Below, piece after piece: positions 20,128 to 26,851 of a DNA stretch of 64,000 nucleotides. The notes under the pieces were generated by a model that was not told the DNA's origin, did not search any database, and saw nothing but the letters and a program-made list of their open reading frames with translations. Origin of the DNA: Flavobacterium sp. SH_e (lineage in GTDB: Bacteria; Bacteroidota; Bacteroidia; Flavobacteriales; Flavobacteriaceae); assembly GCF_025717045.1 (NCBI RefSeq), contig NZ_JAOVZN010000001.1, forward strand, positions 248,001 to 312,000, read 5' to 3'. Position 1 is the stretch's first letter, and every line of letters begins with the position of its first letter. The position numbers and the translations under genes were made by a program.

Positions 20128-20215
20128 GCAATAATTTTCAGGAGCTATTCCTGCTGTCCGCTATATCTTTTGTGGCGAACCCCGCCACAAAAGGATGCCG
20201 CTCCCATCAGGGCTA
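20128..20215. repeat. Structured interspersed repeat, copy 1, upstream of fumC
   Basis: CTTTTGTGGCG (20167-20177) and CGCCACAAAAG (20183-20193) form a perfect 11-base stem with a five-base loop. Flanking blocks CAGGAGCTATTCCTG and GATGCCGCTCCCATCAGGGCT can pair (AGC/CCTG with CAGG/GCT) as an outer stem. GC content is well above the surroundings. From memory, similar 'ggagctatt...tccgct...ggatgccgct...gggcta' blocks recur between genes in flavobacterial genomes; a diverged reverse copy is at 25791-25850. The rest of the 19960-20297 gap is AT-rich with no gene. Confidence 0.65.
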
Positions 20216-20297
20216 AAAGACTCATTTTCAAAAGAAACTTTTCATTTCACATTTAGACATTTCACATTTTACAAATAACATTTTTACAAACAACATA

Positions 20298-21683
20298 ATG
20301 AAATATAGAATAGAAAAAGACACCATGGGCGAAGTTCAAGTCCCAGCCGATAAGTATTGGGGTGCACAAACAGAACGTTCGAGAAACAATTTTAAAATCG
20401 GGCCTTCAGGTTCAATGCCAAAAGAAATCATAGAAGGTTTTGCTTATCTAAAAAAAGCTGCAGCATATGCCAATTATGATTTAGGTGTTTTACCAATCGA
20501 AAAAAGAGATGCCATCTCAGCAGTTTGCGACGAAATTCTGCAAGGAAAATTAGACGATCAGTTTCCATTAGTAATTTGGCAAACAGGCTCTGGAACGCAA
20601 AGCAATATGAATGTAAACGAAGTAATTGCTAATCGCGCACAAGTTCTTAAAGGTTTTGAAATTGGCGAAGGCGAACAATTCATTAAAGCCAATGATGATG
20701 TAAATAAATCACAATCATCAAACGATACTTTCCCAACAGGAATGCACATTGCAGCTTATAAAATGGTGGTTGAAACAACAATTCCCGGTGTAGAAAAACT
20801 TCACGCTACTTTAGCAAAAAAAGCAGCCGAATATGCAGCTGTTGTAAAAATTGGGCGTACGCACTTAATGGATGCAACGCCACTAACTTTAGGTCAAGAA
20901 ATTTCTGGTTATGCAGCTCAATTAGCATTCGGATTAAAAGCATTAAAAAATACTTTAGCACATTTATCTGAAATAGCTCTTGGAGGAACAGCCGTAGGAA
21001 CTGGTCTTAATACTCCAAAAGGCTACGACGTAAAAGTGGCTGAATATATTGCTCAATTTACCAATCATCCTTTTGTTACCGCAGAAAACAAATTTGAAGC
21101 ACTTGCAGCCCACGATGCCATCGTAGAAACTCATGGAGCTTTAAAACAATTAGCTGTTTCGCTAAATAAAATTGCTAATGATGTTAGAATGTTAGCTTCA
21201 GGACCACGTTCTGGAATTGGCGAAATTCATATTCCTGAAAACGAACCCGGTTCTTCTATCATGCCAGGAAAAGTAAACCCGACACAATGTGAAGCTTTAA
21301 CAATGGTTTGCGCTCAAGTAATCGGAAATGATATGGCAATTGCAGTTGGAGGAATGCAGGGACATTACGAATTGAATGTTTTTAAACCCGTAATGGCAGC
21401 CAACTTTTTACAATCGGCACAATTATTAGGTGATGCTTGTGTTTCTTTTGACGAACATTGTGCGCAAGGAATCGAACCAAACCATAAAAGAATCAAAGAG
21501 TTAGTTGATAATTCTCTAATGCTTGTAACAGCATTAAATACCAAAATTGGATATTACAAAGCCGCTGAAATCGCTCAAACTGCGCACAAAAACGGAACTA
21601 CGCTTAAAGAAGAAGCTGTTCGTTTAGGTTATGTAACTCCAGAAGATTTTGATGCTTGGGTGAAACCTGAGGATATGGTTTAA
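20298..21683 (+). CDS. fumC: Class II fumarate hydratase
   Basis: A 461-residue class II fumarase that interconverts fumarate and malate in the TCA cycle, a cytoplasmic homotetramer with no metal. The aspartase/fumarase signature [15 protein letters not shown] is intact near residue 318, and [19 protein letters not shown] and [16 protein letters not shown] are also present. The length is standard. No clear -7 box was seen before the ATG at 20298; the upstream region contains the structured repeat and a short AAC/ACATTT-rich stretch. A terminator follows after a heptamer repeat. Confidence 0.95.
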
Positions 21684-24680: not shown

Positions 24681-25075
24681 GGGGTCGACTGGTTTTGACA
24701 GCAAGTCGAATTGAACAGTAAGCACGTCGAGCATTGAGACCTTGCTCGTAAATATAAGATCTCAAACTTTTACACGGCGAAAATAATTACGCTTTAGCTG
24801 CTTAATCCGAATCATAGTAAGATTGCGCCACGTCTCTACAAGGTAGGGAAGCTGGATTCTCCTGGAAAGCCTTGGTTTGTGGCGTTCCGTTCAGGGGAAC
24901 CGTAAAAATAAACCTAGATTTCCATGAGCTTCGGGTGGATTTCGAAATTTAAGAAGATAAGTGTTGGGTGGTTGTTTCTGGCCTAGCTCAACATCGAAAA
25001 TTCAATCAGGAAATAAGCGTGTAGAAAGCTCTTTAGTTGCTTGTTTGGACCCGGGTTCGATTCCCGGCGACTCCA
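24681..25075 (+). ncRNA. ssrA: Transfer-messenger RNA (SsrA)
   Basis: The 5' end GGGGTCGACTGGTTTTGACAG and the 3' end TTCGATTCCCGGCGACTCCA fold into the tRNA-like domain; GGGGTCG pairs with CGACTCC including one G-U pair. A tag frame at 24776-24805 reads GGC GAA AAT AAT TAC GCT TTA GCT GCT TAA, giving GENNYALAA. The tag is preceded by an Ala resume position as usual. tmRNA with SmpB rescues stalled ribosomes and marks the product for proteolysis. CCA is not encoded. The gene is one-piece, not permuted. A strong terminator follows. Confidence 0.97.
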
Positions 25076-25081
25076 CTTAAG

Positions 25082-25790: not shown

Positions 25791-25850
25791 TATAGCAGGG
25801 AGCGTTATCCTTTATGTCCTTTATTGAAAAAAGATAAAGGGCTACGCATA
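25791..25850 (-). repeat. Diverged copy 2 of the structured interspersed repeat
   Basis: Read on the minus strand this region keeps the order of copy 1: ATCTTTT, an imperfect hairpin (CCTTTAT/ATAAAGG), AAAGGAT, then CGCTCCC and TGCTA. The hairpin itself has changed sequence but the flanking blocks match. It lies just after the transporter stop codon and may act as its terminator. Confidence 0.5.
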
Positions 25851-25858
25851 AATAAAAA

Positions 25859-26851
25859 TTATAATTCTTTTCGTCGAGCCATACCCTGAGCGATGATACT
25901 AGCGGCAATTAATTGTAACGCATGGTAAAGCATGAGTGGCAGCAATATGATGCCGGTAATAGTACTGTGCTGAAAAAGCACTTTTGACATAACGGTGCCG
26001 TGTACCAATGACTTTTTAGACCCGCAGAATAAGACTGTAATACGGTCTTCATCTGAAAAACCAAGCAGGCGGCTGAGTAGTCCAACGCAAAAGAATACGG
26101 CAAAAAACAATGCCATCATCCCTGCAGCTAGTCCACCAAGTTCAAGGGCGGTGAAGCCTTCAAAAAGATGTTCGGAAAATGACTTGCAAAATGACGTGTA
26201 AATAATTGTTAGAATAACTCCCTGATCGAAATATTTGAGCTGTTTCTTGTATTTTTCGGCAAGTGCGCCGAAACGGGAATTAAGGCTTATTCCAATCATG
26301 ACAGGCAACAAGACTTGAAGAATCAACTTTATGACGATTTGAGTGACATCAAAATCGCCTGTCGCAGAAGCTATAAACAGCCCAACCCAGAGCGGCGTAA
26401 CCACTACTCCGATCAAACTGGAAATGCTTGCATTGAAAATGGCAGCGGGAATGTTTCCTTTGGCAATAGAAACCATCACCACGGAAGAGGATACTGTGGA
26501 CGGTAAAGCCGCCAGAAAAAATACACCCAACCAAAGCAGCCCGAAGCCGTTATTGACAAACAACGGGCGAAACGCCAAAACAAGGAGCGGAAAAAACAAA
26601 AAGGTTGTCAACTGAACGATAATGTGCATTTTCCAGTTGGAAAGACCAGCTTTTAGTTTCTCAACACTCAGTCGCATGCCATAAAACAAGAAAATCAAAG
26701 AAACGCCAGCATTGGCAATCTCCTCCAGCGAAACAGGTTCTTTGACCATGCCTGGCTTTGGTAAAAAATAAGCCATCAGAATCATGGTGGCTATCATTAA
26801 CAGGAAACCGTCGAAACCTGCTTTTTTTAATACTTGTAATAATTTTTTCAA
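25859..26851 (-). CDS. Bile acid:sodium symporter-like (SBF-like) transporter
   Basis: A 330-residue membrane protein with nine or ten hydrophobic segments, of the BART superfamily SBF-like (YfeH) type rather than a true bile-acid carrier. Conserved stretches are SLIFLFYGMRLSVEKLKAG and LPSTVSSSVVMVSIAKGN, with VLFCGSKKSLVHGTVM near the end. Substrate unknown. The start is TTG (26849-26851), because the frame upstream is closed by a stop and no ATG fits. It is the third gene after mesX and mesD, 60 bases downstream of mesD. GC is visibly higher than the region (59 of 120 bases at 26461-26580), suggesting recent transfer. Co-location suggests transport of a methionine-pathway compound (inference). 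Confidence 0.8.
   Translation of the reverse strand: MKKLLQVLKKAGFDGFLLMIATMILMAYFLPKPGMVKEPVSLEEIANAGVSLIFLFYGMRLSVEKLKAGLSNWKMHIIVQLTTFLFFPLLVLAFRPLFVNNGFGLLWLGVFFLAALPSTVSSSVVMVSIAKGNIPAAIFNASISSLIGVVVTPLWVGLFIASATGDFDVTQIVIKLILQVLLPVMIGISLNSRFGALAEKYKKQLKYFDQGVILTIIYTSFCKSFSEHLFEGFTALELGGLAAGMMALFFAVFFCVGLLSRLLGFSDEDRITVLFCGSKKSLVHGTVMSKVLFQHSTITGIILLPLMLYHALQLIAASIIAQGMARRKEL

Follow-up and report, generated by a model that had tools for sequence, protein, structure and literature searches.

The GC-rich structured repeat upstream of fumC in this Flavobacterium raises the question of whether it is a conserved RNA that acts on neighboring or distant genes, or a dispersed DNA element that happens to stand there. 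The sequence-only reading of the window (the whole stretch of 64,000 nucleotides that was analyzed) had allowed for both and named no described function for such repeats. The repeat belongs to a family that had escaped that reading, Flavo-1 (RF01705), described in 2010 (Weinberg 2010, PMC2864571) and listed since then as a probable structured RNA, indeed without a function. What is new here is four-way covariation in the stem, a strand bias of wobble pairs, placement that is blind to gene direction, turnover of the hairpin at fixed sites and a mismatch with Y1 transposases. The question thereby becomes which enzyme recognizes the folded strand and whether copies move or exchange.

The repeat upstream of fumC is a member of the Flavo-1 family

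The Rfam covariance model of Flavo-1 matched the window at 20218-20143 on the minus strand over its full length (model positions 1-76 of 76) with a score of 78.8 bits, where the gathering threshold is 42 (window-wide E = 9.6e-16), bearing out the claim of a GC-rich structured repeat at this place. The segment at 20143-20218 (-) is thus a full-length member of Flavo-1, with which it shares strand, structure and taxonomic group, and nothing spoke against membership. The GC-rich apical hairpin (TTTTGTGGCG-AACCC-CGCCACAAAA, 20168-20192) is the part that diverges most, both among copies and among orthologues. It is enclosed by longer imperfect arms. On the Rfam strand, the 5' arm (TAGCCCTGATGGGAGCGGCATCC, 20193-20215, -) carries the conserved box TAGC as well as internal loops rich in purines and pairs with the 3' arm (20147-20167, -), which is followed by the 3' terminal box AGCTCCT (20140-20146, -). 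Read on the plus strand, the ends are therefore AGGAGCT (20140-20146) and GGGCTA (20210-20215). Outside the Rfam model, the flank ACTCATTTTCAAAAGAA (20220-20236, +) recurs near many Flavobacterium copies and is kept at the fumC site of relatives.

The element lies approximately 80 bp upstream of fumC (20298-21683, +), which encodes a class II fumarate hydratase of 461 aa, and is antisense to it. The best relatives of this protein are 95-98% identical, and the nearest named ones are from Flavobacterium species. When compared with dinucleotide shuffles, the plus strand folded as single-stranded DNA with z = -3.27, and RNA folding gave z = -2.12 for the Rfam (-) strand and -2.70 for the plus strand, indicating that both strands are able to fold. 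The fumC element is thus an authentic but unremarkable member of a family already described.

Flavo-1 is abundant in Flavobacterium and patchy elsewhere

Further copies in the genome had been named beforehand as a test of the repeat, and the model had 39 matches with E <= 0.01, of which 34 exceeded the gathering score, in the 5.27 Mb assembly of 22 contigs; a DNA similarity search of the same genome recovered 24 copies. Flavo-1 was present in 98 of the 149 Flavobacteriaceae genomes sampled, and the expectation that a conserved structured repeat is frequent between flavobacterial genes was thus correct. Six close relatives carried 27-116 copies per genome. In a sample of the phylum, all ten Flavobacterium genomes had at least 21 copies each, and Flavo-1 was patchy elsewhere, a flavobacterial and Bacteroidota distribution like that of the described family. 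Flavo-1 is a dispersed, intergenic, quasi-palindromic sequence of about 80-115 bp that occurs, like REP sequences, in many intergenic copies and in both orientations. Carriage on plasmids or phages was considered and rejected; no plasmid or phage record had similar DNA, and a single exact-pattern match was found in viral contigs. A second form of Flavo-1 (L015, L014, L028, L034, L039 and similar loci) has an additional stretch of ~30 nt with TTTTGAAAA between the hairpin and the TCTGCTTCT end box.

The fold is conserved on one strand

Structure and motifs were counted in 176 parsed and filtered Flavo-1 elements from many genomes. Covariation in the stem, the other test named in advance, was strong. 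All four Watson-Crick types occurred at two pairs of the lower helix (X-Y: CG 93, TA 67, GC 8, AT 8; N-M: AT 107, GC 37, TA 23, CG 6), two types occurred at most other pairs, and mispairs were very few. The elements thus form a covarying, interrupted hairpin, as expected of Flavo-1. Further, a GNA block, part of the purine-rich internal loops, stood at a constant place in 173 of the 176 elements and TAGC preceded the stem in 166, with the apical hairpin free to vary in sequence and length.

Template switching during replication creates and mends hairpins and can mimic compensatory change (PMC8794818), and covariation alone is therefore no proof of a functional RNA or of selection on the fold. 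The internal loops, however, are kept, and on the Rfam strand nearly every pair that is not Watson-Crick is G.T, which argues for selection beyond template switching. There were 47 G.T pairs and 4 A.C pairs on that strand (p = 2e-10), counted in elements that are related rather than independent and that were found by a model tolerating G-U on the Rfam strand. Mutation alone would yield equal numbers of G.T and A.C, suggesting that it is the fold of the Rfam strand that matters. We rejected an intrinsic terminator on inspection, as the stem has its T's on the 5' side and its A's on the 3' side on both strands.

Flavo-1 is placed without regard to gene direction in Flavobacterium

When the Rfam strand was compared with the flanking genes at Flavobacterium loci, 39 were sense tandem, 33 antisense tandem, 19 convergent and 13 divergent. 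An Rfam strand that acts in mRNA should face with the genes, and these counts therefore argue against a role in mRNA. They agree with the transcriptome of F. psychrophilum, in which Flavo-1 matches lie sense or antisense within transcribed regions and many lie outside them (PMC9723704). Several 5' transcribed regions of that species coincide with Flavo-1 matches, and the published data do not support expression of discrete small RNAs (PMC9723704). Thus, the proposal of a conserved RNA holds for the structure and is weak for gene control, given random orientation and many untranscribed copies (PMC9723704).

In genera other than Flavobacterium, the best copy of each was antisense to its operon in 16 of the 20 scorable cases, many of which are the same orthologous sites. 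The plainest example is the intergenic gap of sufD and sufS, occupied by Flavo-1 in eight genera (L042, L045, L046, L050, L053, L059, L064 and L068, at ~1501-1600). In several genera, ~11 nt separate these copies from sufD, and the ATG of sufS is 8 nt away where measured; the copies are antisense to the operon, so that the suf mRNA carries the complement of the Rfam strand. Their retention in eight genera suggests that some Flavo-1 copies are useful where they stand. Elsewhere too, Flavo-1 is often very near stop codons.

The hairpin is replaced at fixed sites

The sequence-only reading had noted flanking blocks that are kept around a differing hairpin, a pattern that holds among copies and at orthologous sites. 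At the fumC site, Flavo-1 was present in six of the 13 other Flavobacterium species examined and absent from the other seven. F. potami (L071) keeps the same arms around a different apical hairpin, F. reichenbachii (L074) has an extra hairpin inserted in one arm, and a metagenome-assembled relative (L080) has the variant form V2 close upstream of fumC. In F. pectinovorum (L073, about 2780-2855), the element is now a perfect palindrome, apparently a correction of the quasi-palindrome by template switching, which is what that mechanism predicts.

Another site (L011) was searched for in relatives with its joined flanks. The V1 hairpin was found in genomes G000 and G149, V2 in G150, G111 and G152, and remnants elsewhere; the outer flanks were shared, with 91-97% identity between G000 and G150. 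At a third site (L018), two relatives (G150 and G151; L246 and L231) lack Flavo-1, and a long inverted repeat of unrelated sequence, CGCCACGAATTCACGAATT...AATTCGTGAATTCGTGGCG, fills that intergenic gap instead. The comparisons at these three sites indicate that the hairpin is replaced as a unit. At two of the orthologous sites, fumC among them, the ends have stayed in place and the hairpin has been swapped, lost or turned into a perfect palindrome. Ectopic gene conversion after breakage of the hairpin would explain such replacement, as would an exchange encoded by the element itself.

Signs of mobility and the relation to known repeats

Copy number and hairpin replacement are consistent with the mobile element proposed initially, whereas the other marks of mobility (a clean empty site, target duplication or a transposase) were not found. 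There was no clean empty site with exact junctions at the sites compared, and target duplications of at least 5 bp, as expected of a MITE, flanked only two of 137 elements. A 2-bp TA target duplication may occur. An autonomous long form with separated arms was rejected, since lone arms were at chance level in the fetched loci, known variants aside. Close pairs of Flavo-1 (L200, L202, L204 and L208) enclose ordinary host genes.

A Y1_Tnp domain was carried by 59 of the 149 Flavobacteriaceae genomes, and Flavo-1 copy number was weakly rank-correlated with Y1 count (rho 0.21, p 0.012). Despite this correlation, we rejected mobilization by a Y1 or RAYT transposase: a strong Y1 match was found in six of the 36 genomes with at least 10 Flavo-1 copies, compared with 26 of the 113 others (Fisher p = 0.49), and no cognate gene flanked by the repeat, as in RAYT-REP systems, was detected. 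The genome's single Y1 gene adjoins another palindrome, and no Flavo-1 lies within 1.5 kb of it. Further, a GTAG, GGAG or CGTC tag, as found in RAYT-REP systems, stood beside the stem in none of the 176 elements on the Rfam strand and in three at the other end. The Y1 gene itself (L040, 1230-1860; G000:C12; 143 aa) lies between genes resembling those of cobalamin biosynthesis, with the palindromes CCTCCAG...CTGGAGG and GCTAAAGCC downstream of it. Gene and palindromes make up a RAYT-REP pair that has nothing to do with Flavo-1. One copy of Flavo-1 (L037) has a palindrome similar to that of L040 nearby.

In several contigs, a few hundred bases separate a Flavo-1 copy from the contig end (L021, L022, L031 and L032 lie near contig ends). 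Two loci reach 16S with Flavo-1 about 700 bp upstream (L178, 1-853; L203, 163-1278), and several others share the leader motif. Copies upstream of rRNA operons belong to one Flavobacterium clade. None of the six 16S genes in the complete genome G316 has Flavo-1 upstream, and G208 has two copies ~5 kb past the 16S start. We therefore rejected a function linked to rRNA operons; the linkage is lineage-specific and is more likely a single insertion that was copied along with the operons.

The REP and BIME sequences of RAYT transposases resemble Flavo-1 in being short intergenic palindromes with many copies in both orientations, often beside stop codons. However, they span 20-40 nt as compared with about 80-115 nt, and Flavo-1 is interrupted by conserved internal loops, bears no GTAG/CGTC tag and has no cognate RAYT that we could find. 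ERIC and NEMIS/Correia sequences are small MITE-like repeats with terminal inverted repeats, and like Flavo-1 they are dispersed imperfect palindromes of ~100 bp. Flavo-1 differs in that no target duplication of at least 5 bp was detected, its paired arms are internal, and its ends (TAGC and AGCTCC) do not form an inverted repeat. Like Flavo-1, integron attC sites are imperfect hairpins that carry conserved boxes, vary in their terminal part and fold preferentially on one strand, but the attC boxes (RYYYAAC/GTTRRRY) were found in none of the 176 elements, and Flavo-1 does not lie in cassette arrays.

A REP-like element is the best explanation of Flavo-1

Many copies, no preference for gene orientation within Flavobacterium, a fold on one strand and replacement of the hairpin together point to a REP-like dispersed DNA element with a strand-specific fold and hairpin turnover, and not to an sRNA gene or a switch of fumC. 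From these sequence patterns, we give this reading a probability of roughly 0.6. The fold on one strand would be selected because a single strand, either single-stranded DNA or an RNA intermediate, is recognized during spread of the element by a putative enzyme of the cell or of a mobile element. Hairpin-prone replication, by template switching or by breakage and repair from another copy, would then swap or perfect the hairpin in place. The copy at fumC descends from a common ancestor of several Flavobacterium species and can probably be dispensed with at that site. A more specific proposal, which we regard as doubtful, is that Flavo-1 is a new type of element, mobile or self-exchanging, rather than a regulatory RNA, in which a putative non-Y1 enzyme would read the loop-interrupted hairpin of the folded strand (as single-stranded DNA or an RNA intermediate) and would also swap resident hairpins, leaving the ends.

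It is unlikely that Flavo-1 is a cis-acting mRNA element (a leader, an intra-operon element or a 3' end structure) controlling the adjacent gene. Strong covariation in the stem, the location in several genera ~11 nt past sufD and 8 nt ahead of sufS, the frequent proximity to stop codons and the 5' transcribed regions of F. psychrophilum that coincide with matches (PMC9723704) are what such an element would show. The random orientation already weakens this explanation, however: the folding strand has its wobble signature on one strand only, yet no orientation is preferred within Flavobacterium. Further, the suf mRNA carries the complement, and seven of the 13 species lack Flavo-1 at fumC. A trans-acting small RNA family, in line with the Rfam type ('Gene; sRNA') and with the rating by Weinberg et al. 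of 'probably RNA, not cis-regulatory' (PMC2864571), is quite improbable in view of the 27-116 diverse copies in each Flavobacterium genome searched in full, the apical sequence that is not conserved, and the RNA-seq of F. psychrophilum, in which matches lie on either strand and often outside transcribed regions (PMC9723704). The strand-specific wobble, random gene orientation and replacement of the hairpin at fixed sites thus argue against both cis-regulation and sRNA function. The evidence suggests a dispersed DNA element in place of the Rfam type, and not every Flavo-1 match should be annotated as an sRNA gene.

Mobilization of Flavo-1 as a REP or MITE by a Y1 (RAYT/IS200-like) transposase would agree with the strand-specific hairpins, with the REP-like intergenic placement near stop codons and with the occurrence and weak rank correlation of Y1_Tnp. 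We consider this origin highly unlikely, given that copy-rich genomes are not enriched in strong Y1 matches, that the single Y1 gene adjoins another palindrome and that the Rfam strand bears no tag. Inert relics, neither functional nor actively mobile, whose hairpins are made and kept by template switching during replication and by ectopic gene conversion, would account for the perfect palindrome in F. pectinovorum and the hairpin swaps at fixed sites by a mechanism documented for hairpins (PMC8794818). Template switching would, however, erase the purine-rich internal loops, which are kept (GNA in 173 of 176), and the excess of G.T over A.C points to selection on one strand; this last explanation has very little probability.

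The second site in the window is probably a decayed relative

The segment at 25791-25850 (+), directly past the stop codon of a transporter gene on the minus strand (25859-26851), had been called a diverged reverse copy of the repeat. The reverse orientation was right. The segment goes unmatched by Rfam even at E <= 10, but its nucleotide alignment is significant, and we therefore call it a probable decayed relative only, similar to V2. Its local alignment with Flavo-1 scored 22.0, higher than all 500 shuffles (maxima of 16.0 against the fumC copy of the window and 18.5 against V2) and all 1320 other segments of the window. Further, TATCCTTT and AAAAAGATAAAGG are common to this segment and to V2, the variant of Flavo-1 at other sites. 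No other near-identical copy was present anywhere in the genome. The orthologous flanks found in relatives were without this sequence, and the relatives differ there; descent from Flavo-1 is therefore probable, not proven. A tmRNA gene (RF00023, 147.5 bits) lies at 24681-25078 (+), between the two Flavo-1-like sites of the window.
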